DNA of 62,475 nucleotides from a virus (IMGVR_UViG_3300023184_000124:1-62475), one strand, 5' to 3'. Positions 9,977-61,000 are shown, counted from the stretch's first letter. Made by a program: numbers and translations. The notes: generated from the letters alone by a model not told the origin.

Positions 9977-12633
9977 TATTGAGATTCATTTGGTAAAATA
10001 GTTTTATGTGGAAATAATACATGAAAATTTTTACTATTTAATGGATCTGGTACCGGGGTAGCACTTGGCAATCCTGTCCAAGTAGGAGGATTAGTAGTTT
10101 TATCATAGTTATATGTGGTGCTTTTATCCACAGTAAATCTATCAATATTAAAATTAATTTGATTTAATTTATATGCCCAATTGTCATTTATATTATTTTT
10201 AATAGTAATTGCTTTACCTGGTTTGGTATAACAAATAACCCACGCTTGTGTATATCCTAATGTATTACCATTCGCTTGCTGACTGGTCATCCATAGAGGT
10301 AATAAAGAAGAATCATATTGTTGACCCAAAACTGCTGACACTCTGTTACGCATATTAATTAAACTATTTGGATATAACACTCTAGCCGAACCCGGAGTTA
10401 AACTAGTATAATATTCTTGACCAAATATATTTACATAACTAGTATATATATCATCTACACTAGTATACCAAGAACCCTGAAATAGATTAATAGGAGTTGG
10501 CCAATATATTTCACTGCTAACACTTACCCCGCTAGGATTTATTAAATTATCAATGATTTCACTATATACAACCTCATATATAATAGTACCAGCACTATTT
10601 TTAGCAACAGCAGTTTTTAATTCACCCAATGTTACATTTCTCCAATAATGATTTTGTGTAACTGCGGCAATATATTCATCTAAATCGCTAGAAAATACAC
10701 CATATAAATGCTCATATACAACACTAGTTGCTTTACCAAAATATATATCAGTTGCTCTATATAAATCTATAGTAGGAATCAAGGTAGTATTAGTTAACAA
10801 TGAATTTATTATATTTCTATCTGTAATACTAGGTGTAGCGTTAATATATAATATATCTGTTGGTTGATTATATTGTTGTAAAACAGATATAGTAAATGTT
10901 TTATTTGAATTTAATAATGGATGATCAGGAGAGTATGCTCGTATAGTAACAGTAAAATCAGTAGTTTCGTTTAGTATTAAAAATTGATTAGTAGGTTGAT
11001 CCGCAACATATCCGGTTATTTCTCCATTATATAATAATTCTAAATTAGGAGGAAGTGAACCTGACACAATGTCATAATATAGTTCTACTTGAGCAGTTGC
11101 TAATACATTTAATGTACTAATTGTTCCGTTATAAATTGTTCCCATATTAGCTGGAGTAATCCAAGTAACAATACCATCAAGCCCATTACTTATTTTATAT
11201 GAAAACTCAACATATTCACTTATAAACGATCCTTTTAATACAGCAACTGAAAAATTATATTGGTTAATTCCAGTTGACCCTAAAATTGGAGTACCAGTTA
11301 TCCAACCAGTTGTTGTATTCCCTATCATTCCACTTGGTAATCCTGAATAAGAATATGAAATTACAGAATTATCAAAGTCTTTTCCTATTATCTTAAATGC
11401 AAAATAATTATCACTTTGAGTAGTGCCAATAAAAGTTGAAGTAGCAGACGGGGTAGTTAATGTTCCACTTTCTTTGGGCGGTGTAAAATAATATCCATAA
11501 TATTCATTAGTTGGTAAAATATTAAATGTAGTGGGTCTTGTATTTAAAATAACCGGACTTCTTGAATTTGGTATTTTGCCCGGACCCCCTTGGCTTACTG
11601 GAGTATTTTGATTAATAACGGTAAGTTGATATTCAGCCACAGCAGTGCCTAATGCACTTTCTAATTTTAATGTAAAAGATGATGTTCTTATTGTTGGCTG
11701 ACCTACACTAGTAGCCGGTAAAGTAACTGTCATATACCCAGCAGCGTCTGTAACTAAGTAAGTTGGACCGTTTTGGATAGTAGACACCGTAAATTCAGTA
11801 CTATTAATTATACTTTTAACATAATATGTAGTAGTATTTAGTGAAGTAGCAGTTCCGGTACCGGACCCAACTCCTGTTGCAGTAAATAGTACGCCTATTG
11901 AATTAGCAGGTGCACCGATTAAAGTAAAGTCAGTTGGGGTATTACCAATCGTTGTAATTTCATAACTATTTCCTATTATAAAATAACCTGCAGATACTAC
12001 AGCTGTGGATGATATTGTCCCGAACGTAGTGCCTGAAAAAAGTACAATTCTACCCAAAGCAAATCCAGTTGTACTTAAACAAGTTATAATATTTGTTGAT
12101 GCAGTTGTGAGAGAAGCACTTGTTACTATTAACGGAAATGTTATATTAAGTATTGGTGGGTTTGGATATCCTCTAATAATACCTGATTCATTTATTTCTA
12201 GCCCAGACGGCAATAAGCCTTCTTTTAGGGATATAATTACAGTATTGTTAACATCAGGATTAGAATATTGAATTGGAATTTCAACCCAAATACTATCTTG
12301 TACACTTAATAAAGATCCAGTGGGAGTAGTAAACTTTGGAATTGCAGCGCCTAATACAACCATAGAAAATGTTCTATCTCTTAAATTATTTAAATTATCA
12401 GTAACACGTACAGTAAAAGTGCTAGTTGTTGCTAATGTAACTAAAGTGGGAGTGCCGGTTATTAATCCATCTTGATCTAATGATAAGCCTGGCGGTAGTA
12501 CTCCGCATAATAATGCATATGATATTGATGATGCAGGTGACTGTGCAGATGCTGATAATTGAAAAGTAGCCGGTAACAATGATGGAAATGTTCCCAGAGA
12601 TCCGGCGGGGGTGTTCCAAATAGGCTGTGCCAT
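9973..12633 (-). CDS. Virion protein with putative Ig (He_PIG-like) domains and shared tail modules (886 aa)
   Basis: The N-terminus has Ig-like repeats of the He_PIG type: LPPGLSLDQDGLITGTPT, then LLPSGLEINESGIIRGYP, later GLPSGMIGNTTTGWITGTP and SLPPNLELLYNGEITGY. Such folds are common in phage surface adhesins. Around residues 170-310 a YYI-type module is interrupted by a second module ending [10 protein letters not shown]. Both modules are repeated in the giant protein at 43045-62475. The C-terminal 300 residues are aromatic-rich and lack repeats. The gene is followed in the same direction by the 426-residue virion protein and preceded by an endolysin. A decoration or fibre role is inferred; the Ig fold is known to occur in such proteins. 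Confidence 0.75.
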   Translation of the reverse strand: MAQPIWNTPAGSLGTFPSLLPATFQLSASAQSPASSISYALLCGVLPPGLSLDQDGLITGTPTLVTLATTSTFTVRVTDNLNNLRDRTFSMVVLGAAIPKFTTPTGSLLSVQDSIWVEIPIQYSNPDVNNTVIISLKEGLLPSGLEINESGIIRGYPNPPILNITFPLIVTSASLTTASTNIITCLSTTGFALGRIVLFSGTTFGTISSTAVVSAGYFIIGNSYEITTIGNTPTDFTLIGAPANSIGVLFTATGVGSGTGTATSLNTTTYYVKSIINSTEFTVSTIQNGPTYLVTDAAGYMTVTLPATSVGQPTIRTSSFTLKLESALGTAVAEYQLTVINQNTPVSQGGPGKIPNSRSPVILNTRPTTFNILPTNEYYGYYFTPPKESGTLTTPSATSTFIGTTQSDNYFAFKIIGKDFDNSVISYSYSGLPSGMIGNTTTGWITGTPILGSTGINQYNFSVAVLKGSFISEYVEFSYKISNGLDGIVTWITPANMGTIYNGTISTLNVLATAQVELYYDIVSGSLPPNLELLYNGEITGYVADQPTNQFLILNETTDFTVTIRAYSPDHPLLNSNKTFTISVLQQYNQPTDILYINATPSITDRNIINSLLTNTTLIPTIDLYRATDIYFGKATSVVYEHLYGVFSSDLDEYIAAVTQNHYWRNVTLGELKTAVAKNSAGTIIYEVVYSEIIDNLINPSGVSVSSEIYWPTPINLFQGSWYTSVDDIYTSYVNIFGQEYYTSLTPGSARVLYPNSLINMRNRVSAVLGQQYDSSLLPLWMTSQQANGNTLGYTQAWVICYTKPGKAITIKNNINDNWAYKLNQINFNIDRFTVDKSTTYNYDKTTNPPTWTGLPSATPVPDPLNSKNFHVLFPHKTILPNESQY
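11852..11900 (-). repeat. 49-bp element identical to 51194-51242
   Basis: The minus strand here is identical over 49 bp to plus-strand positions 51194-51242 in the giant gene. Both encode the same part of a GSGTGTA-type module. The flanking module sequence is also very similar. Confidence 0.85.
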
Positions 12634-12634
12634 A

Positions 12635-26229: not shown

Positions 26230-26831
26230 GGTGCAATCTCTATAAATTTAATCATGTCATTAAATAACACTTCTTTAATCTTACTAACAACCTCATCAAC
26301 AGTTAAGTGAGAATTTGAATATATATCATTAAATCGTTCTTCATGCCCTTTATATCTATTAGTATTAAAGTTAGTTTTAGTTAGCCCTAATCTTATTTCT
26401 AATATATTTAGAAAAGGATATTCTACTCTAAGCATATTTGTAAATGATTCTAAAGATTTCTTTGTTAAACTGTATGTAAGATTATTTGGATAGTACTGTA
26501 TGTTATTAGTACTTGTTATATTAACAATTTTACAATTAGCATTAAGTTTTAATGCCTTTTGTGATAACAACACAGGAGCAATTAAGTTAGTATTAATAAT
26601 AGTCATAATCTCATTTGTATTATGTTTTGTAAATTCTATTTTACCCCCAATGTCAGTGCCGGCACAATTGATTAACATATCAATTTTTGGCATATTAAAT
26701 TCAAAAATTGCTGAAGTGTTTGATAAATCTAAATTTTCCCGAGTCAGAGCAATAATATCATTTGATTGAGATAATGATAACTTTAATCTTTCTCCTACTC
26801 CACTGCGTGTGCCCGTTATTAATATTTTCAT
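26226..26831 (-). CDS. Short-chain dehydrogenase/reductase (SDR)
   Basis: The 201-residue protein has the classical SDR layout: the nucleotide-binding TGTRSGVG at residues 6-13, NCAG at 55-58, Ser108, and the catalytic pair Tyr121 and Lys125 (YSLTKK). It should use NAD(P)(H) to oxidise or reduce a small substrate, which cannot be told from sequence. It is a little shorter than most SDRs (about 250). It overlaps both neighbours by 4 bp, gp46 upstream and the radical SAM gene downstream. The two enzymes probably work in one pathway. Confidence 0.88.
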   Translation of the reverse strand: MKILITGTRSGVGERLKLSLSQSNDIIALTRENLDLSNTSAIFEFNMPKIDMLINCAGTDIGGKIEFTKHNTNEIMTIINTNLIAPVLLSQKALKLNANCKIVNITSTNNIQYYPNNLTYSLTKKSLESFTNMLRVEYPFLNILEIRLGLTKTNFNTNRYKGHEERFNDIYSNSHLTVDEVVSKIKEVLFNDMIKFIEIAP

Positions 26832-28594: not shown

Positions 28595-28625
28595 GGGTTT
28601 TCATTAAATTATTTAAGATAGTATT

Positions 28626-29642
28626 TTAAAGATTGTTGTAAATGTCTAACAAAATCTTTTTATCAAAGCTATTGCTTTCAATACTATTGATTTGAGCAAT
28701 TACAATTTGATCTACTGATTCAAACTTTAATCCGTCTAAGTTTTGTCCTTGTTCTACTTGATCTGCTTTCATGGGTATTAATGTCATTTCTCTTAACTTG
28801 TGTTCTGGAATAAGGGTTTCTCTAATAAAATTGGCTTCTTCATATGATATATCTATATCTAAATGAACACGCACATGGCTATCAATCAATAGTAAGTTTT
28901 CAGGATTTTCTAATACAGCACTTAGTTTATGAACTCTGTATATTGGTTGTCTGGGCCAACTATGAAATTCTGGTTCAGTTCCCCATTCTAAAATCATCAT
29001 GCCTCTAGCATCATCACCTGCGTCAGCATAATTATGCGGAAAGGTATTGCCGATATACCAAATATTATTTCGTGATTGTCGTTTGTGAAAGTGCCCACTA
29101 AATACTTTTTCAAATCCTGCTAAATGCTGTTCATTTATTTCACCATGATCGGGCATAGAAATCATTGCATTCATATAAAAATGAGGTAATTCTAAATGTC
29201 CAAACATATATTTACCACTCATTTTTTTAAGTTTTTTATAATCATCTTGTACTAACCATGGTGCAATAACAACATCATCAATTTTTAAAAAGTCATTAAC
29301 AATTGTAATATTGGGTAAATGTTTTGCCCATTCTACACTATGAATGTCACGGCGGTCACGATAATATAAATCATGATTACCGGGTATAAAAAATATTTGT
29401 TCAAAATTTTTACTTAGTTTTTCTAATGATTGTAACCCAAATTGTAATGTATGGATATTAATAGTGGCTCTATGATGATTCCAATCACCTAAGAAAAAAC
29501 AAGTTTCACAGTTTTCTTTTTTTGCTTTAGCAATAAACCAATCAACAAAATTTACACAGTCTTGATTGTGTTGTAGACTATTGCTTTTAAGTCCATAGTG
29601 AATATCGGTAAAAAACGCTGCTTTTTTAAATAAATTACTCAT
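28626..29642 (-). CDS. gp47: Recombination endonuclease subunit gp47 (SbcD/Mre11-like)
   Basis: The metallophosphoesterase partner of gp46. The five nuclease motifs are clear: FFTDIHYG, FLGDWNHH, IPGNHD, FGHLE and SGHFHKR. I choose the ATG at 29642 (MSNLFKKAAFF), giving 338 residues, the size of T4 gp47 (339). A longer frame back to 29741 would overlap the gp55 gene and add an unrelated hydrophobic stretch. It lies 31 bp upstream of gp46. Confidence 0.96.
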   Translation of the reverse strand: MSNLFKKAAFFTDIHYGLKSNSLQHNQDCVNFVDWFIAKAKKENCETCFFLGDWNHHRATINIHTLQFGLQSLEKLSKNFEQIFFIPGNHDLYYRDRRDIHSVEWAKHLPNITIVNDFLKIDDVVIAPWLVQDDYKKLKKMSGKYMFGHLELPHFYMNAMISMPDHGEINEQHLAGFEKVFSGHFHKRQSRNNIWYIGNTFPHNYADAGDDARGMMILEWGTEPEFHSWPRQPIYRVHKLSAVLENPENLLLIDSHVRVHLDIDISYEEANFIRETLIPEHKLREMTLIPMKADQVEQGQNLDGLKFESVDQIVIAQINSIESNSFDKKILLDIYNNL

Positions 29643-29648
29643 CAGAAT

Positions 29649-29677
29649 ATTGTAGCATAATACTATGCATATTGTAA
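29649..29677 (-). promoter_or_regulatory. Possible sigma70-like promoter before gp47
   Basis: Minus-strand TTACAA (29672-29677), a 17-bp spacer, and TACAAT (29649-29654) lie six bases before the gp47 ATG. The same spacing is seen before the gene at 7268-7777. The match is modest. Confidence 0.3.
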
Positions 29678-29692
29678 TATAATACGGATACC

Positions 29693-30604
29693 TTACTCCT
29701 CGTAGACCATAGACCCAGAGCCCGACCCCTGCCGAGACCAACTTGGATTCAATCCATTTAGTTCTAAGATATCATCACGAATATTTTGGCTTCTTTTTTC
29801 AGTATTCAATACTCTACAAAATGAATTTGTAATAGCAGCCGTATAATAAGCAAACGGGTTTGCTGACTTAGCCTCATTAAATCTTAATCCAACATATGTT
29901 AATTGAAGAATAGCAGAATTTCTCATTTCATCGTTGTAAGTATATCCACGCCAATTGTATTTCATAGCATATTTTTCACACATCATAATATACATTCGGG
30001 CAAGTTTGTTTGTAATAGTGCCGTGTTCTTTGCTAAAATTACCAGTAATTAAATCTGTTTGCCAATGACTTTTACCAACACATTTAAAGGTATTAGTGTT
30101 ATCTATCATAAAATGTTGGAACGGTGGAAAATTAACCTTAACATGAACCATATCATCTATTTCGGCTTTGGTTGTATTATCTTCCAAATCAGCAAAAATC
30201 TCATCAGTGTCGGGTTCTATAAATTCAAAGATATCTTTTGCTGTTTTCTTTTTTAAGCTTTTACGCGGTGTTTTAGGAGCAACCGGTATATGTTCCCATG
30301 TCATGATTCTGAATACCAAATCAGTAATAGGAATGGAAAGTGGGTCAACTGAATCTTTAATGCCGGCTTCTAAACTTAATCTAGTTGCTCTTGTTTCCCT
30401 TGCTAGTTGTATTGATTCTGGCTTAATAGCATAGTCAAAACTTTCTGTAAGAGATGACTGGGGCATATCTACTATAAAATCATATCTGTGATATTCTGCT
30501 TTTTCAAAGTAACAATATGCTGATTTGCTTTCGTGAATTTCTTTTAAAATATCTTTGTTGTTGAGGTAGTTAACTGGCTTGCGCGGTGCGGGTAATAATG
30601 ACAT
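29693..30604 (-). CDS. gp55: Late-transcription sigma factor (gp55)
   Basis: This factor directs host RNA polymerase to late promoters. The N-terminus (NYLNNKDILKEIHESKSAY) matches the YVNNKELL start of T4 gp55, and the C-terminal half keeps the sigma-like helices (YNWRGYTYNDEMRNSAILQL and NPFAYYTAAITNSFCRVL). It has 303 residues against 185 in T4. Most of the extra length is an insertion near residues 40-185 between these two blocks. AAGGAA lies before the ATG. The many (A/C)TAAATA motifs in the window are its likely targets. Confidence 0.92.
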   Translation of the reverse strand: MSLLPAPRKPVNYLNNKDILKEIHESKSAYCYFEKAEYHRYDFIVDMPQSSLTESFDYAIKPESIQLARETRATRLSLEAGIKDSVDPLSIPITDLVFRIMTWEHIPVAPKTPRKSLKKKTAKDIFEFIEPDTDEIFADLEDNTTKAEIDDMVHVKVNFPPFQHFMIDNTNTFKCVGKSHWQTDLITGNFSKEHGTITNKLARMYIMMCEKYAMKYNWRGYTYNDEMRNSAILQLTYVGLRFNEAKSANPFAYYTAAITNSFCRVLNTEKRSQNIRDDILELNGLNPSWSRQGSGSGSMVYEE

Positions 30605-42600: not shown

Positions 42601-43021
42601 ACAAGATTATAAAATGCTAAGTGACAGTGTTATATTAAACAGTGTAGTATTTAAACCGTTGTTTGGGGCTAAAGCAGAACCCGCGTTAAGAGCAACTATT
42701 AAGGTTATTAAGACTAGCGGAATAAGTGCTAGTGACAGTGAAATTCGTAGTGCAGTGTTAACTACAATGAATAGTTATTTTAATATCAATAATTGGAATT
42801 TTGGAGATACCTTTTATTTCTCAGAATTGAGTGCATATATACATGCTGAAGTTGGATCATTGGTTAATTCAGTAGTATTAGTGCCAAATGACCCAACAAT
42901 GTCTTTTGGAGATTTATATGAGATAAAATGTAGACCATATGAAATTTTTGTTAACGCGGCGTCTTCATTAGATGTGATTGTTATTGCAGCGTTAACTCCA
43001 GCCGAATTACAAATAGCATAA
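39647..43021 (+). CDS. gp6: Baseplate wedge protein gp6 (1,124 aa)
   Basis: gp6 forms the continuous ring of the inner baseplate. The N-terminus is typical: DFKSYDYETLRKSFIDYLRA, ESSEFIALLDVMAFMGQGLA and NTRENFIDTAERRDSVIKLA, as well as APARYYTQNRMVNGEDYNNF near residue 425. The C-terminal part (KVIKTSGISASDSEIRSAVL) is the baseplate J-like ending. At 1,124 residues it is about 1.7 times T4 gp6 (660); the extra text is in the centre (about residues 470-900). Confidence 0.94.
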   Translation: MATSSRQSALFGVNDWKAIYQTFKQADFKSYDYETLRKSFIDYLRAYYPETFNDYVESSEFIALLDVMAFMGQGLAFRNDLNTRENFIDTAERRDSVIKLANLVSYTPKRNLAGQGYLKITSIQTTQNIVDLNGLNLANLAVLWNDPSNSNWLNQYNSIINAALINAQRIGRPGNTASILGIKTDEYALNIPSDSLPIVPFTSTVDGINMNFELVSVTSVNEDYMYEYPPAPSGKFNMLYRNDKLGYGSPNTGYFFYFKQGTLQNFDFNLEQQISNQVIDIGTIEGVNNTDTWLYQLSTDNITSRFLWTEVENVYADAYLQTESSQRQLFSVGSRFNDQVNYVFGDGVFSKIPVGPFRAYVRAGNALTYTIDSSEMAGINISFPYVNRSGKIETLTFGLQLTTPVSNAQARESLANIKQRAPARYYTQNRMVNGEDYNNFPYTLYSSIIKSKAINRSSVGVSKNLDLLDPTGKYSSTNSFANDGALYLDSSDGNLVLTVTSSGTIIRFLSDTLSAALISNQALQYYIQNYPMYTVDTGLSSGATYWKTKTVDANSLTGYFYNTTGTTEIPIPVGIYSTTPVKYISKGALILFTAPSGYFYDINNRLVSGVSGRPTTLWTTVLTVIGDGYNFGTGGFSNGTGPIILNGYVPAGSILTTILPAFDNSLSNVIIQEAIVRMELQQSFSLVFDNSLTIDQDRWSIKPYNSSNYFVNFLSSITNNRYTISYKSLKYYFGSVADTRFTFEIDELVYDPFSGKILQDFVNILTTNTQPNSSYPLQNNVEISILGQTVQSDGYIDDFEVEVASIDTNDRTIITNPTFFNSVTGYTVGNANIGVYVFFELVEDAINLSRQQIIPTTTVVYQYAIKSQIEVVKYEYVEGQIFYAYTDNLFYTSVQDDTISTPYYNLIEQPQYSVKPGRQGLAFQYRHNSNNTTRIDPATTNIIDLYVVTQSYYTAYQNWIQDSTNTIVKPAVPTINELESDYSKIQDYKMLSDSVILNSVVFKPLFGAKAEPALRATIKVIKTSGISASDSEIRSAVLTTMNSYFNINNWNFGDTFYFSELSAYIHAEVGSLVNSVVLVPNDPTMSFGDLYEIKCRPYEIFVNAASSLDVIVIAALTPAELQIA

Positions 43022-43044
43022 GTACTATATAAAGATTTAAAAAA

Positions 43045-46000
43045 ATGGCCACAAGAATTAGAACACTAAATTTTCTTCCGGAAATATTTAAAACTCCTAC
43101 CAATTCTCAATTTTTAAAAGCCACGCTTGATCAAATAGTAGCGCAACCAAATACTAAAAAAATACAAGGGTATGTTGGTGGTGATTTTGGTCCTGGAATT
43201 AATCCAAATGATTATTATGTTGTTGAACCTACAAAAACTCGCACCGACTATCAATTAGACCCGGGTGTGGTTTTTACTAAAGCAAATGATGCCACTGCAA
43301 AAGATTTTATTAGTTACCCAGGCATTATTGATGCTCTTAAGGTAGAGGGCGGATTAACTAATAATAATAATAGATTATTTAATAGTGAGTTCTATTCATG
43401 GGATTCCTTTACTAATTTAGATAAAATAATTAATTTTAATCAATACTATTGGTTACCAAATGGACCTAATCCAGTATTAATATCAAATGCAACAGTTTAT
43501 GCTGCTGCCGAGTATACTGTAACTACTAGTAGTACAACTGCTGGGTATAGTATTTCTACAATTCAAGGACAACTTGGTACAACTAATCCATCACTAACTT
43601 TATTACGAGGAGGTACATATACTTTTGCAGTCAATCAAACTAGTAACTTTTGGATACAAGGTGCGCCCGGCGTTACTGGATATAGTCTTACTCAACCCAA
43701 TGTACAAACTAGAGATGTTTTGGGGGTAACTAATAATGGGGCTGAAACAGGATTAATTACATTTACTGTCCCTAATAAAAATGCACAAAATGAATATAAT
43801 TTTTTAGGTAATAATTTAGTTGATGTTGTTAGTACAATCCCGTTTGAACAAGTTAACGGAGCATTACTATCAGATTTGGTAGCAATAGACGGAATAACTT
43901 CGCTTGAAGGGTTAACGGTAATGTTTTATAATACCGGTATACCTGACGAAATTGGATATGTGTCTAACTTTTTTGATTATACAAATTTTGACCAAAATAC
44001 TAATTTAGTGGCTGCATTAACTATATCAGTAACCAATACAACCACCGGTACCAATTTAATAACATGTAATTCTACTGCAGGACTAACACTAAATGATACT
44101 ATAACATTTACTGGAAATATACCATTTGGTGGATTAATACAATATTCTGCAACGATCCCCAATACAATTTACTATATAAAAACAATTAATAGCTCAACAA
44201 CATTTACTATTTCGCAAACATTAGGCGGTGTGGTTTTTCCTTTAACAACGGCCACCGGAACGTTAATTGGTAATATTAATGAGGGGTTGCTAGAAGAAGG
44301 ATATTATACAACAGTCAATGATAATTTTTATACTATCACATATATTGGGTCATCAAGTGATCCAATTATTAGACTTATCCCTGCAGGACAAATACCCACT
44401 AATGAAAAAATAACTGCGGTATACGGAACTGAATGGATAACTAGAAATTTTTATAAAAATATATACGGATATATAAGTGTATATCCTTATCTAAGCGCAA
44501 TATTAGATAAATTATATTATCAAGACGGCACTTCACAAAATAAAGTGGGAGTAATTAACCTTATTGATAGTAATAACACTTACTCGTTAAATGTTGACGT
44601 TGACATATTAGGTAAACAAAATTTTACTTCTACCGGAGGTGTTGTATTTACCAATGGACTTAAAGTAATATTTCGCGGAGATGTATTTCCAAGTTCGTAT
44701 AGAACAGGACAATATTATGTAGAAGGCGTGGGCACTGCAATTGAATTATTAAAGGTGCAAGATTTAATATCTCCTGAAGCATTTACTTCAGGATCATATA
44801 TTCCATATGATAGTACTGCATATGATATTGGAAATTTTGATTCAGAATTGTATATTCCACTAACACCAGATTATATAACAATTGCTAGAAATTCTATTAA
44901 TAAAAATGCCTGGTCAAGAAGTAATAGATGGTTTCATATTGATGTAATCAATGCAACTGCTACTTATAATAATGACCCTGCGTCAATAACAATATCTGCC
45001 ACACAAGAATATAAGGCTAAACGTCCTATTATAGAATTTTATCCAAATATTAATTTATTTAATTCTGGCACTATAGGTAAGAGTCCTATAGATTTTATAG
45101 ATGATAGAACTACTGACGCTTTCTCATTGGTTGCGGGAAAAGAAAACTATTACCCAGATGTAACTAGTTATTCTACTTATAATACTACACTTAATGGAGT
45201 ATCTAGTGATTTGTCCGGTACCAGAACAGCAAGCAATACAACGGTTAACACTAACTTAATCACATTAAGTTTAGGCAATACTGTTGGATTTCAAATAAAT
45301 GATAAAGTTGTTTTTACTGGTTATCCAAATTTTGGTAATATTTTATCCGGTATAACTTATTATATTTCAACGTTAGTATCTACTCCGTCAGCCTTCATCG
45401 GTTTTATCTCAACGAATACACTTACTGTTAATTCTATTAGTGCAGGAAGTTTAAAACTAGGAACTTATATTTCTGGAGTTGGCATAACCGCAGGAACTTA
45501 TATTACGGCATTTGGATCAGGCTCCGGCGGTACAGGAACCTATACAATTAATAGTACGTTAGTAATTACAACGTCTGAGATGGTTGGAAATACGTATGAA
45601 TCATTTACTATATCTGAAGATCAAAACGGAGATACATTAATATTGTCTACCGCTAGCGGAACATTTGATGTTGTTGTAACTCCGTTGTCTACTACTGCAA
45701 CAGTGCTGACAACTGACATAACCGGCTCAATTGCAGTTGGGCAATATATTACAGATTCTACACAGTTATTGCCTAAAAATAGTATTATTACTGCTATTAG
45801 CGGGACAACTACGCTAACAATAACAATGACATGGAATCAACCAACAATATTTGCATCAACTACGGTTGCTTCAATTATAACAACAGATTTACAAGTAGAT
45901 AACTATGCGTTATTTCCCGGAGCAAGAGTTGTTTTTACAGCAGACACAAATGATAATATAAAAAATAAAATTTATGTATCACAATTTTCACTTGTAGCAG

Positions 46001-49000
46001 GATCAACTACTCCTGTTATAACGTTAACCGAAGCAGAAGATGGATTGGTACTGCCCGGTGAGCAAACCGTTGCCTTCAGAGGATATAACTATCAAGGTAT
46101 GGATTTTTACTTTGACGGAACTAGTTGGATAGAATGTCAACAAAAAATAACAGTAAATCAACCTCCATTATTTGATGTTTATGATAATAATGGAATAAGT
46201 TTTGGAAACACAGAGATATACTCAAGTAGTTCATTTGCAGGATCTAAATTATTTGCATACGGAATAGGTTACGGGATTGATGATATTATATTAAGTTTTC
46301 CACTTAGATATAGTTCAGTAGCCAATGTTGGTGATATAAGTTTTGATGTTTCATTAAATAAAGATACCTTTAATTATGTATCGGGAACTACTCCTATAAC
46401 TCAAAAAATTAATACAGGATATGTTGAAAATACCATTTCGTTTGGCTTAACTAAACGTAATTTAGGGTGGCAAACCGCAATTGCCCCTAGTATTCAATAT
46501 CAACAGTTTCAATTTAATTGGGCGCCGGTAGTAGGGACATTGCCAGTTTTTACGTGTGATATAGCAGTAGTTGATTCTGTTGAAGGTAACTGGCCTGTTA
46601 TTAAAGTGTATGTAGATAATATTTTTCAGGCTGCAGATTCTTACACATATACCACTACTACAACTTCTACTATTATAACTTTAAATTCAACTATTATACA
46701 AAGTATAGTAGAGATATTAATATTAAGTGACCAAGTAAGCACTACAGCATATTATAGTATTCCACTAAATTTAAATAATAATCCATTAAACCAAGATTTA
46801 ACAACGGTAAATGTAGGAGATATTCGTACTCAATATCGTAGCATATATCAAAACAATCCTAATATTATCGGGGAAGTTTTTGGGCCTAATAATTATAGAG
46901 ATTTAGGAAATCTAGTTCCGTACGGTAATGCAATCGTACAAAATAGTGCTGCATTAGTATTGCCTGGCGTGTTTTTAAGAAAACAAAATTATAATTTATT
47001 TAATTCGTTAATGTTTAACAGCAGAAGTTACATTACATTTAAAACTCAATTAATAGATACTGTTAATAATACTGCATTTAATGCCTTACCAGAGCCAGCA
47101 GCATTATTAGATAATGCGTTAGATATATTAACTGCTTCTAAAATAGATAGCGAGCCATTCTTTTGGAGCGACATGATTCCTTCCAAATCAGCATACATTA
47201 GTAATACATATTTATTTGCAAATTCATTAGATATTAGTGTATATCAATTAAGTAGGGTATATAATTTTAGTACAGCAAATTATAATGGTGTATTAGTATA
47301 TTTGACTAGAACTACCAATAACACAACAAAAATTACTCAATTAATTAAAGGAGTAGATTATTCTATAAGTGCAGATTCACCATATGTAACCGTTACCTTA
47401 GATTTAATAGCCAATGACATAATAACAATTAATGAATATAATCAAACTTACGGAAGTTATATACCAAACACCCCTACTAAGTTAGGATTATATCCAGCAA
47501 CTATTCCAGGCGTAATACTAGATAGTGCGTACCAAAATCCAACATATTTTATTGTTGGTCACGACGGGTCTTACAATAAATTATATGGTGCATATAATTC
47601 TACAACCAGTACATTAGTTGATTTTAGAGATCAGGTATTATTAGAATATGAAACTCGTGTATATAATAATTTAAAAGTAAGTGCAATTATTCCAATTAAA
47701 GAATATGAAGTATTACCGGGATTTTTTAGAGAAACTGATTATACCAATGATGATATATTACAAATATACTCTGAAACATTTTTAAATTGGGTAGGGCAAA
47801 ATAGAATTAATTATAAAAGACAAATTTATAATACCTATAATCAATCTACTTATAACTATTTTCAAAGTGGAAATAAGATAAACAAAGCTGTAATACAGCA
47901 AGGATATTGGAGAGGAATATTTCAATATTTTTATGACACAACCACGCCGGATAAAACGCCATGGGAAATGTTAGGATATACTAATCAACCTACGTGGTGG
48001 GCTACTAAATATGGTGCAGCACCATATACTAGTGATAACTTCGTATTGTGGAATGATTTAGCAGAAGGAATTGACTGGAATGACGGTAACCCTATTGTAA
48101 TTGCCGCAGCAGTAAGACCTGAATTATTACAAATATTACCGGTCAATAGTGCAGGTGAATTATTATCTGCATTTGATGCTATCGTGGGTAATTACAACAA
48201 TAATTTATTTCAACGTGATTGGAAAGTAGGTGATGATAGTCCAGCCGAACTTAGTTATCGTAGAAGTAGTTCATGGCCATTTGATTTGATGCGTATATTA
48301 GCATTAACTAAACCTGCAGAATTCTTTAATTTGGGAGTTGATTTAGACAATTACAAATTCAATACTGAATTTGGACAATATTTAGTAAATGATAGAAGTC
48401 ATTTGGTTGTAAGTAATATAGAAATATATGGATCAGGTACTGCTAAAACCAGTTATATTAATTGGATTGTAGATTATGCTAAACAAACAGGAGTAGATGC
48501 CACCCAAGATCTATTAGATGTATTAAGAGATTTGGATGTTAGGTTAGTATACCGATTAGCCGGGTTCAGTGATAAAGATTTATTAAAATTTTATGTAGAA
48601 AAGGGCACACCTAATAACACTAATGCTTCTTTATTAATACCTGATGAGAGTTATTCAGTATTGTTGTATGATAATCAACCGTTTGCTAAAGTAATATATA
48701 CCGGCGTTATTATTCAAATAACAACGAACGGATATGCAGTTTATGGTAATTCACAAACACAAGCGTTCTTTAAAACATTTAAACCAATTAATAATGGCAT
48801 TTATGATAATATAGAAGTAGAAACTCTTACTGTTAGGGTTGCTAGTAAATATTCTCCTGTTGAAATTATTATACCGTATGGTACTGAATTTTATACAGTT
48901 CAAGACGTAGCACAATTTTTAATAAGTTATAGCAAATATTTGGAAAGTGAAGGATTAGTTTTTGCTGAAATTGAAAATGGAATAGAAATAAACTGGAGAC

Positions 49001-52000
49001 AAATGACCGAAGAGTTTATGTATTGGGTTCAGTTGGGTTGGGAAGTAGGAAGTATAGTTAATGTAAATCCGGCGGCTACCTATTTAGTTATTTCTCGTGA
49101 CAGTTCAATTGTACAACCTTTAACTTTCCATCAACAAAATTTTGTATTAAATCAAAATTTATATCCAATTCAATCTAGAGATTTGAGCATAGTTCGTGAA
49201 GATACGACCTTTAGCATAAAGACATTAAATGCAGGCGACACTATATCCTACGGACAATTTAATATATATAATTTTGAACATGGCATTGTGTTTGATAATA
49301 TTACGTTATTTAATGATACTATCTATAATTTAATAACTGGGCTACGTCAAGTAAGAATAATATTAAATGGTACTAAAACTGCTGAGTGGAACGGCACGAT
49401 TGATGCTCAAGGATTTATTCTTAATCAAGATAATATACTTGAGTGGAATAAAGAAGTAAAATACACAACCGGTTCTATTATAAAATATAAAAATAGATAT
49501 TGGATAGCAATAAAAATCAGTCAAGCAAAAGAAATATTTGATGAACAAGACTGGAAACTAACAGATTATAACGAAATACAAAAGGGATTATTGCCTAACT
49601 CAAGCACACGTTCATATGAAAGTACCTTATATTACAACTCTAATTATGCTAACTTAGAACAAGATTCTGATTTATTAAGTTTTTCTTTAATAGGGTATCG
49701 TCCTAGAGATTACTTATCCGTTGCGGATTTATCTGATATAACTCAGATTAATGTTTATCAAAATTTAATTAAAGAAAAGGGAACACTAAATGCAGTAAGT
49801 GCCTTTAAGGGTGCAACATTATTGCAAGGCGGAATTAAATATGATGTTTATGAAAATTGGGCTATAAAATCAGGTGAATTTGGCGGAGTACTAAATGATA
49901 ATTTTGTTCAATTTAAATTAAATCAAACTTACTTAACAGGTAATCCCTCTATAGTAGGTCTTACTAATGGTATAGCAAATGAAGGAGTTCAGCAAGAAAT
50001 TCCTATATATTCATTATTTAATTATGGCAGAGTTATTAATGATGTTAATATATTACCTACTATAAATGCAGGCACACAATCAACTGTATTCCCTGACGCC
50101 GGATATGTAAATTATAATGATATTAAAATGTCATCATATTTCTATTTTAATTTACCTCAGGCTGCTAATCAATATGGTAAAGTAATTCCGTTATCTAATT
50201 TTTATGTAAGAGATTATACTTGGCTGGCTAATTATTTAGGCACATGGCAGGTATTTACCCCTGCTTCATTGGGTCAGGTTATATATGCTAAAAATAATTT
50301 AAATGGAACTGTTACAATAACATTTAACCAAACTCATAATTTAGAACAATATCAACCGCTAGCAATAGTTAATTTCAATGATGGTATCAATGGATATTAT
50401 ATCGTAAGTTTAGTAGTAGATCCCAATCGTGTTATTATTAATTTAACATTAAATCCAAGTATTCTTACAGTTACTGGATTTGGAATTGGATTTAAATTTC
50501 AATCACAACGAGTGGCCACCCCGTCTGAAATAATTAATTTACCTTTATTAGACGCTGAATTTATTAAAAATAAAGTGTGGGTAGATACTAATGAAGACGG
50601 TAACTGGGCTGTATTACGAAAAAATATTAATTATCAATATGAATCTGAAATTCTAAAAGCAACAAGTAATACGTTTGGTAGTGCTGTGGCATATACTGCT
50701 GATATTGGTTATTTAATAGGCGATGCCACAGCCGGCAAAGTATATAGATATGTATATAATGAAGTAGATTTTATATATGAAATAGTACAAACTATTACTA
50801 ATGCTTCTTCATTTGGTACAACTATAGTGCATGTTGGAGATCTTATAGTAATATCAGAGCCAACTACTCCTAAGGTCTATATATATCAATTACAACATAC
50901 TGCTGTAATTAATTCTATTACCCCGTATCAAAATACAATAGCATTACCCGGAGATGCTATTGCAATATCAGGCGATCAAAATTGGATATATATTTCTGAT
51001 ACCTTAAATAATAGTGTATCTGCTTATCGTAAATCTCAAAATACAGGAAAATATGAAATTTCATATGTTATAGATGGTAATTCACTTGGATTAACTTCAG
51101 TAACAACTGCCGGTAGTTTTACAATAGGAAATAGTTATGAAATTAAAACGGTTGGTTCAACTGACTTTACTTTAATTGGTGCAGCATCTAATACAATAGG
51201 CGTACTATTTACTGCAACAGGAGTTGGGTCCGGTACCGGAACCGCGTATGCCGGAGATAATTTTGGATATTCTGTTGCAACTGATTACTATGGAGATACT
51301 ATTGTTATAGGTACCCCAAACAAAGATTATAGTGCAACAGTTGATAATTGGGGATATACATACATATTTGATAGAGTAATGCAAAATATAGAAGTGCAAT
51401 ATACTTCTGCATCCCCATCGATACAAACTTATCAATTAGCATGGACTCCTGTCATCCTTACGACAAATATTATTTCTACTACGGCTACTGACACGATTAC
51501 TTGCGCTAGTACAACTGGATTTACTGTACTTACTCCAGCAATGTTTTCTAATACAATGATAGTTGATAGCGGAATATCTGCTGACATAGTGTATTATATT
51601 CGGTCAGTGCCTACCGGTAGCACATTTACTATTGCTGAAAACAAATATATTACTAGCGTTGCGTCTACTATTGCTACCGATAATTTAATTGTAGTTGATA
51701 GTACAACTAATTTTGTTGTAAACAGTCCAATTATTTTTGAAGGTAATGCTGATGTAACTAATATAGTATCCGGTACAACATACTTTATTAAAACAATAAC
51801 TACTGCAGGATTAGCACCGGCTATAACTATATCTGCAACATCAGGTGGCGGAACATTTACTATTGCATCATCAACTAATTCACTATCGTTAACAGCAGTT
51901 ACACTAAGTAGCCCGGTAACAATAAGTACAAAAACTAGAGCAACCATTACTGCCGGGAATTTTTTAATAGGTAGAACCTATCAAATTATAACAGTTGGGT

Positions 52001-55000
52001 CAACTAACTTTATGTTAATTGGTGCAGCATCTAACACAGTCGGCGTAATATTCACAGCAACTAAAGTTGGTTCTGGCAACGGCACTGCATATGCAGTTAT
52101 GACAATTAATGTTCAAACTGAACCTTTATTTATTAAAGTAAACGGCACTTTAATTACTGACAAAAATTATGCAGTTGTGGGAAATAATTTAATAGTTAAT
52201 CAAACTATTAGAGCTGGCGATTTGGTTAATATAAGTGGGCCGTTATTTACGCTAGTACAAACACTTACTACTGAAACTACTCCTAATGTGGGAGTACATT
52301 TTGGACAAAGCGTTGCTGTTAACACATATGCATCAGAACTATTAATTGGTGCTCCATTTGAGTTGAGTACACAGCGAGATGAAGAGGGAGCAGTATTTAG
52401 ATTTACAAACGGTGGTAGTAACTATGGCGTAATTATAGGAACATCAACTTGTACAGTTACTACCGCACGTAATATTTTATTAAATGGATATTTAATTCCG
52501 ATTGTGGCAGGTAATGCGATAGCAGTTGCTAACACAATTAACAATGCTAACGTAACTAATATTCAAGCATCTGCGGTTAATGGCATGCTTATTATTCAGT
52601 TAATAAATGTTGATTTAGCAACAGCAAACGATAAATTAATATTATCTGTTGTTGATTCCGCTACGTTAAGTGAATTAGGAATTAATTTATACACACAAAC
52701 TCAATTTATTAAATGTCCGCATTTATACGGTCCAACTCAATTTGGAAATGTAGTAAAAGTTAACGCTGCTGGGTCTTTTGTTGCAAGTGCGCCGACTGGC
52801 ACCCGATATTTAGCAACTACTTTTGATTTTACTGATGATGAATTCTTAGATAATGACACATTGTTTGATAATAATACTACGCAGTGGGTAGACCCGTTTT
52901 ATAATGCCGGTGCAGTATACATGTTTGATTATTTACCGGTGTACAATGCAAGTTTGCTTAATCCGGGCAAATATATCTATGCTCAAAGTACTAATGCATT
53001 AAATCAAAGTTACGGTGACCAACCCATGTACGGTCACGCTATTGATTTTACAAACGAATCTTTAATTATAGGCACACCAAACTTTAGAGTGGGATATGAT
53101 AACGGTCAAGTTATTACATATTTAAATACTAGTGGGGTACCTGATTGGAGCACATATAGACAATCAGCACCGGTTGTTGACATAAGCAAAATAGCAAATA
53201 TACAATTGTTTAGTGCTGAAACAAATGAAACATTAGACAATTTAGATTATATTGATCCACTTCAAGGAAAAATATTAGGTGCGGCAAGACAAAATATTGA
53301 TATAATTTCTAATAATGATCCTGCAGGATATAACTCTACAACAGCCCCTCGTGCATTAGTATGGGGGACAGGTAAGGTTGGCCAAATTTGGCTTAACACT
53401 AGTAATATGCGATATGTAAATTATCATCAAGATGATATTTCTTATAATAGTCAATATTGGGGTACATTATTTCCAGGCAGTCAAGTGGCAGTATATACTT
53501 GGGTGTTAAGTAATGTCATCCCTGATTTATATTTAGGCCCAGGCACGCCTTTTGATAACACTAAATATGCTACAAACTATACATTAAATGCTACGGGACT
53601 TGTAGTCCCTGTGTATTATTTCTGGGCAAGCAACACTAATATAGTATCTACCGCAATAGGAAAAACGTTAGCAGACTCTACTATTGCCGGATATATTAAT
53701 TTTCCAAAGAATTCTGGGATAAGTTATTTTGCCCCACTATTACCAAATGTGTTTGGATTGTATAATGCTACGCAATCTATAAATGCAAATGATACTGTAT
53801 TAAATATAGGATATTCAACTGGAACAAATGATGATCCTGGACACAACCAATACGCATTAGTACGTGCTAATTATGCCGATGATTTTTTACCAGGCTTCCC
53901 TAAATTAAACACCACAGATTTACCTACTAATTTATATGATAAGTTACTAGATAGTATGTGCGGAGTGGATGAATCGGGGCAAATTGTTCCTAATCCGTTT
54001 TTACCAAAAGCAGTACAAACTGGTATATTAGTACGACCATCGCAAAGTTTCTTTTTTAATAGATTTGGTGCATTAAAAAATTATTTAATGTATGCTAATA
54101 CTGTGTTAGCACAATTTCCAATTACAGAAATTAGAAGAAGTTTATTTTTAACTGCAACCGGACCATTTTATAATACCTCTGATTATTGGATTTATATTAA
54201 TTGGTGGGCTCCAGGCTATAGTGATGCTACAAAATCTGCAACAACCGTTAATATATATGCTGATTTGGCAGCGTTAGAGGTGGTAGCCGGCACTATTGCT
54301 ACAGTAAAACTAAACGGGAACGGTAATTCAGAAACATATATATTAACTTCTTTGGGTAGTTGGACACGCATAGGACTTAATAATGGAACGATTGAATTTA
54401 GTAGCACATTGTGGGATTATTCAATAGATCGATTTGGATTTGGTGATAATTTTTATGACACCACTGACTTTGATTTATACCCATCTGAAGAAACTAGATT
54501 TATTGTTAGAGCATTAAATGAACAACTTTATACAAATGAATTATTAATATTTCGTAATAAAAGTTTGATATTGTTATTTGAATATATTCAAAGTGAGACC
54601 ATTGAATCTCAAAATTATATTCCATGGTTAAATAAAACTTCATTAATTGATGTATCACACACGATACGAGAGTTGGTGCCTATTGATGAATATAAGGCAG
54701 ATAATCAAGAATTTTTAGCAGGTTATATAAATGAAGTAAAACCATACCATGTTGTAATTAAAGAATTTATATTTAAATACACCGGGGTTGATGTATATGA
54801 AGGTGATATAACAGATTTTGATTTACCAGCTGAATATGACATTGAACAAGAACATTATATTAGCCCGCAATTAGTATATGGTTACCCCGGCACTATATAT
54901 CAGTATTCTTATACAGACCCTATATGGACTACTTCTTCATATAATCAATGGTTTACTAACATGGGTGTAAGCATTACCGGAGTATTAGATTATCAAATTA

Positions 55001-58000
55001 CAACCTTAACAAGTTATATATCATTAAATTCTGTTGCATTTTCAGTTGCAAATGCATTTGGATTGCCTACTACCGGTGTATTATTACTGGGTGATGAAAA
55101 AATAGAATATTCAACCGTTGATAGAAATTTAAGTGTGGTCGCAGGACTAACTAGAGGCATAGGTGGCACTACAGTATCTACACATATACCTGGCGAATTA
55201 ATTTATATAGATTTGCCAGCAGTATTATTACTTGACAGCGGAAGATCCTATACTGAACCCCCTAAAGTTATTGCATATATTGACACTACAATTTATCCAG
55301 AGCCAATGGTTTTAGCAGAGTTGGTTGCAGTTATGAATTTAGATAAAGTACTGTCAATTACGGTTGTTAATCCAGGCAAAGGGTATGCAGTATTGCCAAC
55401 TATTATTATAGATTCAGCAGTAATTATCCCGTTTGAAAGTAGTGCAGTTAGTCTTGTTGGCAATACAATTGATGTGTATGCTCCTTTATTAGAAACAGGA
55501 GATCTTATTCAATATAAGGTGTCGGTAGGAAATACTGCAATTGGAGGATTAGTAAACAATCAATGGTACTATGTGAATGTGCTAGAAACTGTGCCAACTG
55601 TTATTGTCGCATTGTATTCTAATTATGGAGATGCTATTAATGGTAATATATATAACAGAATACCCTTTTACAGTGTAGGTTCTGCTACTGGCGGCTCATT
55701 AAATCTAGGGGCAAGAGCATCTTGTGTTTCAACTGCATCTCCAATTCGTCAAAATAATATTACACTTAAGTTTGACCGCACTACCTATAATTCACAAGTT
55801 ACTGATTGGGAAAGTAATGCATTTTATGCATCTCCGTTTGCTGGACTATATTATAATAGTCAAACAGTATCAAGCTCATCTATTACATTAGAAAATACAC
55901 AGCCCAATATTCAATCAATTTTAGCAAGCGGACAGGGAATATCTTTTGAAATAGTTAATGTAACTAATGATCAAATTATTACGTGGTCATCATTTGCTAG
56001 AATTGTTGAAAGAACAATAGCGGCAACTGATATAATAAGATTAACTTTATTAGACAATGGCGCAGGCAATAGTAATGCATCAGGCTCTACTCTTGGCTTC
56101 TATGTAAGTATGCCGATTAAATTTGTAGGGGCAATGATAGGAGGATTGGTAGACGGTACAACATATTATGTACATTCTATTATAAATGATACTGATTTTA
56201 AAATTTCTACCATAGCCGGCGGTGAATTTACTGGTTCAATTTCAACCACTACACTTACTGTAACTACTGTTATTTCCGGTACAATAACCGTGGGAACTGT
56301 TATAACTGGGTTAGGAATAACAATAGGAACAACAATTACTGCATTAGGTACGGGCACTGGCGGTATAGGAACATATACAATTAATAATAGTCAAACTGTT
56401 AGTTCAATTCAAATTAATGGGACCCCTCCGGTATTTGATTTATCCGGATATATAATTCCTGTGGGTGCAGCACCATTAAATTGCTATACTGCTGACGCAA
56501 GTAATACCGCAATATTAACGGTAACGTATCCTGGCATTTCTACAGTTACAGCAACTACTGCAACAACTAATACATTGACTATTCCGTTAAATTTAACAGG
56601 TAGTGGCGGAACTCAGGGTTTCTATATAAATTTACCAATATATTTTACAGGAACAATGATTGGTGGTATAGATGATAATCAAACTTACTATGTAACCACT
56701 GTAGTTGACAGTCAAAGATTTACAATGTCGTTAAATCAAAACCCATTAACTTTGCCTATAACCGGAGCAAATGCAAGTACAGATAAAATTACGTGCGTAA
56801 CCACAGAGTTGTTATCAGATATATTAACAGTTAATCAACCTATCATATTTAATTCAATGATTATATCTGCTGGGTCTTTTGTAATAGGACAAGAATATAC
56901 TATTGTAACAGTTGGAACAACTAATTGGGACACCGTGGCAGGTATTACTAAAACATATATAGTAGGTGATATCTTTATATGTGCTAATTCTGGAGCAATA
57001 TCTGCCGGTAATTATATATTAGGAGAAACTTATATAATTGTTACATTGGGAACAACAGACTTTACTCTAATTGGAGCAGCATCTTCTGCTGTGGTCACTG
57101 GATCAATATCAGGCACAACGCTTAATATTGCCGGTGTTACTTCAGGCATATTAACAATAGGCACATATATTACAGGGACCGGCGTAACGGCAGGAACATA
57201 TATTACTGCATTTGGAACTGGAGTTGGATATTCAGGAACATATACAATTAATAATAGTCAAACAGTGTCCCCGGCAATTACAATTACCGGGCAACCTCTA
57301 GAGGGAACTTCATTTATTGCATCTGGATTAGGTTCGGGTACTGGAACTGCAGGTGCAACCGGTACAGTCGCCGGCACATCTTTTGGCGGTATCATATCGG
57401 GTACAACATATTATATAAGCACGATACAAAATATATCATCTACAATTACTATATCATCTCAGCCTAATAGTGGTGATTTTAATATTACATCTAATGTAAC
57501 CGGTTCTGCATTATTAACTAGTCAAACTGATACTGTTGCACTTACTACTGATGTTGGTAATATGACAATTAATATTTCGTTACCTGTGAGTCCGGGTCAA
57601 GTTAATGGACAACTATTTACTTTGTATGATACATCACAGCAATTTCCAAATATTAGTTCCGGATTAACCGGAGAATTAATACAACGAACTGTTTCTGATA
57701 CTATACCTGCTTCAGTAACTGCAGGCGATTTTATTATAGGGCAAAGTTATACCATTGTTACTGTTGGCACTACTAACTTTGTGTCTATTGGTGCTTCAGC
57801 AAGTACAATTGGAGTGATCTTTACTGCAACTGGTGCCGGATCTGGTACAGGAACTGCTAATTTACCAAATACCGCAGTTGCAGCCGGGTCGTTTGTAATA
57901 GGGCAAACATATGAAATTGCGTACATAGGAAATACAAACTTTATAGTAATAGGTGCTACAGCGCAAACAATTGGATTAGTATTTACTGCTACTGGCATTG

Positions 58001-61000
58001 GGTCCGGTACCGGAACTGCAACTTTGCCTGCTAGTAACAGAATTATTATTGTTAATACCTTAAATGAAATAGGATTAACTAATTTTTATGTTAATATGCC
58101 AATAAAATTTGGTAGCGCCATTGGAGGATTACTAACAACTACTCAATATTATGTATCGTCTATTGGTATAACAAATATTATAGTAACATCAACCTCATCA
58201 ACTGGTAATGTATTAACTTGTAATAATAGAAATGTTTTATCTGAAGAGATGCCACTACTATTCACTGGATATCCGTTAGGCGGGATAGAATTAGATGTTC
58301 AATATTATGCCACTTTTCTTTATAGTGTGGGAAGTTTTATATTAACTAATCAGTATACTATTACTGTTCTAGGGACTACCACACAAGGAAATTGGAATAC
58401 AATTGCAGGAACATCAGCTATTACATATTCTGTTGGTAGTACTTTTACTTGTGCTAATATAGGTACTGGTTTAGGTAACGGCATTGCAAAAAATAATAAC
58501 CCACATACTTTTTCTGTATCTAATACTCCAGGAGGAAGTATCACCGCGGTCACTACCGAATCTGGTATTATGTATGGAACAGGTTCATCATATATACAAG
58601 TTGCTACTACAGTGGGAGGATCAGAGGTAACTGTCACAACAGCAGCAGGCCCGGTTATATTAAATCAAACTCCTATAGGTATAACGCAGGTTGGAAGTTT
58701 TGTAATAAATCAAATTTATACAATTGTAACAGTAGGCACAACAACAACTTTTCAATGGAATGATATTGCCGGAACAACCGGGGCTACTTATATTGCGGGT
58801 ACTACTTTTACTTGTGTAAATGCGGGTGTGGGTTGGGGAACAGGGACAGCAGTAAATTCAGCAATAACTGCCGGCGCTTTTGTTGTTGGTACAACTTATA
58901 CTATTATTTTTCTAGGGACTACTACACAAGGAAATTGGAATACAATTGCAGGAACATCAGCTATTACATATTCTGTTGGTAGTACTTTTACTTGTGCTAA
59001 TGCAGGCACTGGTACTGGAAAGGCTGTTGCATTGCCAGTATTTGATATAAGTTATATCTTAGGCGGATATCGGGCTATAATTACAAATTCTAGTACCGGA
59101 TATGCACTTGATAATACTTTAACTATATCTGGGGTAAACTTGGGTGGACTGAGTCCGGCAAACGATGTACTATTAACTATTTCAGGTATTAGTACTACTG
59201 GAGAAATAGAAAGAGTAATTTGTTCTGGAACGCCAGTTACTGTGTCTCAAAATTATTACTTAAAATCTATTACACTAAATCAGTTTGCAGTATATTCAAA
59301 TCAATTATTGACCGACTCAGTAAGTGGGATAAATTTTGGATTTAATGGAATAATATCTACTACCGTAACAGCCGCAACCGCGTCAACAGATCGATTTACA
59401 GTAACCAGTTCTACTTATTTTGAAATTTCTGATCCGGTAATATTTACTGGAACCGTCTTTGGAGGAATTGTAGTAGGAAGAACCTATTATATTACTACAA
59501 TACCTACCGCAACTACAATAACTATTTCTGAAACTGTTTCGGGTACTACTTTTAATATTATTGCTGATTCTACAGGAACAATGACGATAGCAATGACAGG
59601 AGATTATGCTTTCTTGCTAGAACCAATTACATTTGAACAAAGTATTGTTAAATATAATAATAGAGTTTATGCATGTATTATTAGTAATAATGATACTGAT
59701 TTTGCATTTGGTAAATGGGAATTATTAGACTCAGGCGATAGAAGACTTAATGCATTAGATAGAATTATAGGTTACTATCAACCTACAATTAATATGCCGG
59801 GGGTAGACCTAACTCAATTACTACAGGGAATTAGATACCCTAATAGTACATACTTAGGAAATCCATTTGCTCCTGAGTTTCAATATGAGTTAGACACTGT
59901 ACTACAAGATTTACCGTTTTATCCAACCGATGTTGATAATATATCAATTACTTGGAACGGAACCACTTATTTAGGAGCTTCTAATACTCCTAGTTATTCA
60001 GAAATTATTACTAGTATTGATGGAAGTGAATGGGCTACCGTAAAATTATCTACTAATCCTGTAAATGTAACTGATATAATATATGCAGGTGAATTTTATG
60101 TAGTTACTGCTAATAATGCTGCAACCCCTATATATCGTAGTAATAACGGATCTACTTGGACATCAAATGGCCAATATACTCCGTTTGGGGCAACTCCGTT
60201 TGATGAATTTCCGTATGATTCAACTTCACTTGAGGTAGCATCATTATCATTAAACAGTGTGGCATATTCTGCATCTCTTCTATTATGGGTGGCTGTTGGG
60301 GAAAACATTGTTACTAGTACTGATACATATGCTTGGGCTGAAACATATACTACCCCTGCTAATTATTTAAATGTACAATTAGTTACATCATTTAACGGTG
60401 TTGCTGGAATAAACTCAACTAGTTTTTCCGGAGTTATTTCTGTGGGTAAAGGACAACGTTTGGTTGCCGGATATGCAATAGATACTGATTTAATAGCAAT
60501 TAGTACTAATGGATATAATTGGACATTATTGCCGTCATTGACAACTAAAGGATTTAACGGGATTACTAATAGTAGCAATCTTATTATTGCAGTTGGAGAA
60601 GATGGATTAATCTACTCAAGTGTAAATGGTAATCTATGGCTTGGAGTTTCAGAAACTTTAGTATACGGAACCTTTGTTGCCGGAAATATAGTGTCAGTGC
60701 AAAGTACTGCGGGATTTGTAGTAAACGATGTAGTCAGATTTACAAGTTCATTTGATAATATTGTATTAAGCACCAGTTATTATATTAAGGCTATCGTATC
60801 TACTTCACAAGTTACATTAAGTCTTACTTCAGGCGGAGCAGCAATTACATTAGGTGGAGCAACACCAAATAATGCAGTTACATTAACTCAGATGTATCAT
60901 TACCCTGAATTATATACATTGAATGATGTCTTATATGCTAATTCAATTTATATAGCAGTTGGAAATAACGGAACAATTAGAACATCGTCTAATGGATATG

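Follow-up and report, generated by a model that had tools for sequence, protein, structure and literature searches.

Protein modules nested within other modules in a giant virion structural gene of a phage

The giant gene and its module families

The virus fragment IMGVR_UViG_3300023184_000124:1-62475 from IMG/VR, analyzed over its whole length of 62,475 nucleotides (hereafter the window), comes from an uncultured aquatic phage and carries a giant gene for a virion structural protein in which small protein modules are inserted in frame within other modules. This open reading frame (ORF; 43045..62475, + strand, in window coordinates) runs beyond the window and belongs to PHROG 10938 "virion structural protein" (phrog_10938, E=4e-199), a family to which proteins of jumbo phages such as PA5oct and 121Q are distantly related, and it lies directly downstream of a baseplate-wedge gene (phrog_10646). 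The gene content of the window, with a major head protein, portal, head protease, late sigma factor, SbcC/SbcD-like recombination nuclease, tail-lysozyme baseplate hub and baseplate wedge, identifies the virus as a T4-like large myovirus. The end of the frame was supplied by an independent contig, L009, which matches the window over 18,076 bases at 97.6% identity without gaps and contributes 6,894 codons counted from window position about 44401; completed in this manner, the protein has about 7,346 residues.

Three recurring module families, designated GSG, TYI and YYI, had been read from the sequence in a preliminary description and were borne out by the iterated profiles that define them here. 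The complete copies in the window are far from chance, with profile E values of 1e-7 to 1e-24 for GSG, 1e-27 to 1e-30 for TYI and down to 1e-25 for YYI. GSG comprises about 48 and TYI about 65 amino acids, corresponding to 145-200 bp of coding DNA, and in the window nine GSG copies are encoded by the giant gene and a further one by a gene on the minus strand, while TYI is present three times. Across about 30 homologous giant ORFs, YYI is present in 7-15 copies per ORF (one short fragment excepted), whereas GSG ranges from 0 to 15 and TYI from 0 to 4. Because the number of YYI copies is steady and those of GSG and TYI vary, YYI is taken as the old fabric of the protein, acting as host, and GSG and TYI as the additions inserted into it.

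Pfam searches at E<=1 gave no match for those stretches of the giant gene that carry GSG or TYI, the sole hit being an FG-GAP repeat elsewhere, and no relative of GSG was found in the PDB at E<0.1. A description of GSG, TYI or YYI modules was likewise not found in the open-licence literature. A common origin of the three modules is not claimed, as hhalign yields merely a 21-column resemblance between GSG and YYI (P=0.002, probability 14%). For YYI, Pfam gives a weak and non-significant match to the phage endosialidase beta-barrel PF12195 (E=0.15), and in Foldseek searches two independent models match ubiquitin E1 enzymes, including UBA6 with a probability of 0.96 but an E value of 0.18; the UBA6 match probably falls on the FCCH part. 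These likenesses point to a small beta-barrel fold of the endosialidase or E1 kind for YYI, as a lead for fold and sugar binding only.

Nested modules and their empty sites

Nesting was tested by cutting out the inner modules in silico and searching the sequence again with the profiles, and four nests were obtained, three of them on the + strand of the giant gene. In Nest 1 (56770..57489), which has the architecture YYI[GSG, GSG[TYI]], the N-terminal half of a YYI module (56770-56862) is followed by a GSG without its C-terminal GTGTA (56863..56994, E=3e-17) and then by a composite GSG split by TYI (56998..57348), after which the YYI resumes with its C-terminal half (57373-57489). The composite consists of a GSG N-half (56998-57093), a TYI (57094..57291, E=2.4e-28) and a GSG C-half (about 57301-57348), the halves of both outer modules having been delimited by profile search. 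Excision restored the YYI at E=4.2e-12, compared with 0.0035 and 2.5e-7 for its unjoined halves, and the rejoined GSG at E=6.9e-12. In Nest 2 (58201..58560), a YYI is split between its YY strand and its FSVSN strand by one W-type GSG (58324..58485, E=1.3e-11); its N-half (58201-58320) alone scores E=7.5e-4, compared with 1.5e-7 for the YYI restored by rejoining it to the C-half (about 58500-58560), and the split is also seen in the alignment to empty orthologues. The three nests named in the preliminary description, namely a TYI within a GSG at 57001, a YYI with two GSGs and a YYI split at 58250-58530, are thus all present, with the frame kept and the outer modules resuming; the second holds as far as both GSGs are there, the first of them without the GTGTA end. 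Two more nests had not been described. Nest 3 (45238..about 45660) is a YYI split by a TYI at 45394-45588 (restored YYI, E=5.9e-10), and Nest 4 (11755..12108, - strand), a YYI split by a GSG at 11848-11997 (restored YYI, E=1.5e-13), sits in another gene, 9976-12657(-), which encodes a He_PIG Ig-like protein. The nesting of modules is accordingly confirmed.

If nests arise by insertion, related phages should hold empty sites, as had been predicted. The two 70-residue flanks of each GSG/TYI insert block were sought in the other giant ORFs, and at least one relative with the flanks joined and the insert absent was found for 95 of 105 blocks, including those of the region first described. Once near-duplicates were removed, 89 blocks remained, of which 79 are empty in at least one relative and 63 in ten or more. 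The insert of the median block is absent from 15 relatives and present in 2 others, and for 21 blocks it is absent from at least 10 relatives and present in no more than 1 other. Junction alignments are clean at many sites. In the window, the insert is absent from 21 relatives at Nest 2 (block 58327-58476) but from only 2 at the triple block of Nest 1 (56869-57291). Outside the nests, the tandem GSG pair at 57715..57858 (profile search) and 57877..58020 (E=5e-22) is jointly missing in 24 relatives (block 57721-58014), the W-type tandem pair at 58693..58851 (profile search) and 58864..59025 (E=6e-17) in 17 (block 58690-59019), and the TYI at 56227..56421 (profile search), which follows a YYI module (56062-56226), in 20. 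A further GSG copy lies at 51946..52089 (E=7e-24).

The order of nesting can be followed at one orthologous YYI site, which is empty in L051 and many others, holds one GSG in L050, L045, L044, L037 and L047, and holds a GSG inside a GSG in L041. Across the giant ORFs, 36 of the 89 insert blocks lie inside a YYI, compared with 38 of 445 random excisions, and the insertion positions cluster before FGG (model position about 27) and before the FTIS strand (about 52). The deepest nest, GSG[TYI[GSG[TYI]]], was assigned by eye to residues 4263-4505 of L041; the automatic parse did not recover these four levels and returned YYI[GSG[GSG]]. A second dense cluster, with more split GSG and TYI pieces, extends in the L041 giant ORF to residue 4955. 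The composite GSG[TYI], with an identical inner site, occurs in the window, L011 and L041 and in other genes of L215, L216, L253 and L279, and is found in at least three unrelated genes.

These observations support the insertion interpretation and bear on the view that the apparent nesting reflects tandem duplication and divergence of one repeat, or misassembly. Such a view would be in keeping with the two tandem GSG pairs (57715/57877 and 58693/58864) and with a 105-base stretch of two copies that is 97% identical between the window and a relative. However, the three families share no significant similarity, the outer halves resume after the inserts, and the empty sites already refute duplication; both the stepwise series at one YYI site and the exact DNA pairs of occupied and empty sites exclude simple tandem duplication, and its earlier rejection stands. 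The arrangement is also no assembly error, because the independent contig L009 carries it at the identity given above and without gaps. Hence, this view has almost no chance of being correct.

Nature, spread and movement of the inserts

Ratios of nonsynonymous to synonymous substitution rates (dN/dS) for GSG, 0.18 between the window and L009 and 0-0.23 at a site of another gene (Hc3 site D, below), indicate that the inserts are translated as protein under purifying selection. The possibility that inserts are removed after transcription or translation, as an intron, intein or bypassing element, with the outer module restored in the product, would explain why excision in silico restores that module. 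On the other hand, removal by splicing is unlikely because Rfam gave no match in 43000-62475 and the Pfam searches no intein family; moreover, the amino acids are conserved, dN/dS is well below 1 and the insert is predicted to fold by itself, so that this possibility is scarcely credible. An AlphaFold model was obtained for L093, a relative carrying a GSG in an Hc3-like protein, from an 84-row alignment in which some empty rows were locally misaligned at the insert and the insert rows were well placed. In this model, the inserted GSG (residues 103-155) is predicted with a predicted local distance difference test score (pLDDT) of 84-93 as a compact beta-rich unit of short strands and a short helix lying between well-predicted host strands, and the site at which TYI enters GSG, after IGAxS, falls in the loop following the short helix. 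The modeled GSG of about 50 residues is short for an immunoglobulin (Ig) sandwich, and the whole-model fold search was not specific to the insert.

Searches of IMG/VR gave at least 501 GSG loci, with the GSG consensus as query, and at least 344 TYI loci. Among bacterial and archaeal genomes (84,980 species), one hit was confirmed among the matches listed, and the modules are likely to be phage-specific; annotated phage records with a module include cyanophage S-TIM54 and two spring podoviruses. GSG was found in Hc3/P22-gp10-like stabilisation proteins, tail sheath, central fibre J, baseplate wedge, head-tail adaptor, head closure and major head proteins. The identifiable hosts are nearly all virion proteins; in L124, an amidase family scores best and is followed by head-closure families. 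In L118:1375-2946, GSG lies inside a major head protein, which would imply hundreds of displayed copies per capsid.

In the Hc3-like gene, GSG occurs at four exact sites, A to D, and on the tree of the rest of the protein its presence changes at least 2, 3, 4 and 5 times, respectively. At about 90% DNA identity, L093 is occupied and L099, L111 and L137 are empty, the difference being 144 nucleotides and a few junction codons. The cultured Methylophilales phage Venkman provides an empty counterpart of the spring phage L053 (59% identity). A second stepwise series from L253-type genes and L053 was dropped, the genes being not clearly homologous (20-25% identity), and a 153-nucleotide insertion in L069 relative to L088 and L102 was set aside as containing no GSG module. 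Site D seems to be a general acceptor. In L180 and L213, the position that GSG occupies in other phages is taken by another kind of insert, about 85 residues long and YYI-like by eye.

These distributions also bear on the possibility that the nested proteins are ancestral and that relatives lost the inner modules by precise in-frame deletion. Many relatives are indeed occupied at Hc3 site D and at giant-gene site 51109, and a few empty ones fall within occupied clades. However, in the Hc3 tree site D is empty throughout the second main clade except in L185, the preponderance of empty over occupied relatives at the median block and at the 21 rarely occupied blocks points the other way, and at the stepwise YYI site the outer GSG is common to a group and the inner GSG is found solely in L041. 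Since loss cannot account for copies in non-homologous genes, ancestral nesting is regarded as very unlikely.

With respect to movement, short target duplications had been proposed as a check at the junctions and were not found: at Hc3 site D the best direct repeat is 3-5 nucleotides, within the null expectation, and none is visible in the occupied/empty DNA pairs. Folding of six module DNAs indicated no general palindrome (z -2.3 to 0.4, two of six below -1), and no terminal inverted repeats were seen in an inspection made by eye only. A true mobile DNA element, similar to miniature inverted-repeat transposable elements (MITEs) or Rickettsia palindromic elements (RPEs), moved by a transposase in trans and kept open in frame by selection, could nevertheless be envisaged from the unit size of about 150 bp, the in-frame position, the many unrelated host genes and the recurrent exact sites, as in RPEs (PMC10969869). 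The lack of target duplication beyond chance and of a general palindrome, conservation of the protein-domain type and hosts that are nearly all virion genes rather than random ones make such an element unlikely. Of the earlier proposal of repeated in-frame insertion resembling transposable units, insertion is thus upheld by the empty sites and the stepwise series, and "transposable" describes the behaviour only, without target duplication.

Recombination is indicated by several lines of evidence. At GSG 57715-57858, the window and L009 disagree at 24 of 144 bases, as against 2.4% overall, and the surplus of differences does not extend beyond the module, which constitutes a module-confined allele replacement between close relatives; between the two, synonymous divergence (dS) is twice as high in GSG as in the remainder of the gene (p=1e-4). 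Of 12 comparable pairs of phages at Hc3 site D, 11 show a lower dS in the module than in the flanks, and subtypes of the module take each other's place there. The nearest non-orthologous copy lies in the same genome in 14 of 136 cases at the DNA level, versus 1.6 expected. Very recent jumps are rare in the sample because a single pair of copies reaches >=85% DNA identity with unrelated flanks, namely the GSG of the giant gene at 51106..51246 and that in gene 9976-12657(-) (51109 versus 11854(-), 86%). In addition, the GSG copies at 58354-58458 and 58897-59001 have about 105 bases in common at 97% identity (window versus relative) and differ at their ends, which looks like a recent conversion between copies. 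SbcC/SbcD-like recombination nuclease genes at 26828-29741 (-) in the window are a possible source of module-moving recombination. Also in the structural region, a radical SAM domain protein adjoins a FabG-like reductase (25126-26831 (-)).

Interpretation and comparison with known systems

On this basis, a model was proposed, and is considered quite probable, in which GSG and TYI are domain cassettes that spread by recombination, entering virion proteins, and one another, in frame. Of its parts, insertion, the order of nesting, the spread into non-homologous genes for virion proteins, purifying selection and the allele replacement confined to a module are demonstrated, whereas the recombination mechanism, the loop rule and the adhesive role given below are inferred. 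As small self-contained domains, they would travel within a genome and between aquatic phages by illegitimate or short-homology recombination, followed by homologous exchange among module copies, most likely without a dedicated transposase. Selection for frame and fold may act as a filter, so that the surviving inserts would be those in frame and in loops between beta strands, a rule suggested by the one confident model, that of L093. Since the inserts would possess such loops themselves (in GSG, after IGAxS), they could become targets in turn, giving rise to YYI[GSG[TYI]] and deeper nests. The likely benefit is an extra exposed adhesive or stabilising virion surface, a role drawn by analogy with phage Ig-like domains (PMC9230969) and from the weak likeness of YYI to the endosialidase barrel and E1.

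Several points weigh against this model. The model of the nest in the window itself, based on 11 alignment rows, is poor, with a mean pLDDT of 54 and the insert mostly below 40. No occupied/empty pair was found that differs by the insert alone, the junction at Hc3 site D also being off by a few codons, and no insertion was caught in action; some empty sites may be losses. Because the same-genome enrichment is weaker for protein (6 versus 1.7, p=0.018), base composition explains part of it. Furthermore, the composite GSG[TYI] probably arose on one or a few occasions and travels as a unit, and, because it recurs in unrelated genes with the same inner site, the independent nesting events are fewer than the nests.

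A bolder possibility, which is rather doubtful, is that GSG and TYI are gene-parasitic domains, coding cassettes that insert near-neutrally in loops, multiply through a phage-encoded recombination route and colonise each other. If this were true, large phage structural genes would grow by recursive in-frame insertion, as eukaryotic genomes do by nested transposons.

Reconstructions usually place the insertion of one domain inside another among rare, ancient events. In the present case, such insertion is so frequent that empty, singly and doubly occupied versions of one site are found, across many virion proteins, a major head protein among them, and the rules of domain insertion with regard to loops, ends and order become directly measurable in nature. 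The modules thereby offer a natural catalogue of insertion-tolerant loops of phage virion proteins and of insertable domains, as well as a route for the growth of giant phage structural genes. Naming them would aid annotation, as at least 500 loci carry one and none is named in Pfam.

Of the known systems compared, a simple tandem repeat protein has its copies head to tail, which differs from the present case, in which excision restores split outer modules; the absence of an Rfam match and of an intein family likewise separates the inserts from self-splicing introns and inteins. The endosialidase barrel PF12195 and the E1 FCCH half-domain are weakly similar to YYI, the similarity being not significant by sequence. 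RPEs are elements of about 150 bp that lie in frame within unrelated genes, each encoding a conserved peptide (PMC10969869). GSG resembles RPEs and MITEs in its in-frame insertion, its length of about 150 bp and its occurrence in unrelated genes. In contrast to RPEs, which are palindromic DNA in bacterial genes, the modules are not generally palindromic, reside in phage virion genes and are selected as protein domains. Ig-like domains of tailed phages, such as the sheath additional domains and Hoc, are small beta domains found on many virion proteins and exchanged horizontally; they are supposed to bind weakly to host surface sugars, and some sheath additional domains are built of two separated regions of the chain (PMC9230969). 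GSG is similarly spread across different virion proteins and phages. Unlike these domains, GSG and TYI have no Pfam match, and they are inserted in other domains and in each other, repeatedly within one giant protein. Finally, ongoing domain exchange and fragment shuffling have been reported to diversify phage structural proteins (Smug et al. 2023, PMC10684548); that work concerns the sharing and swapping of domains and does not contain the word "nested", whereas here whole modules enter the middle of others, and do so recursively.

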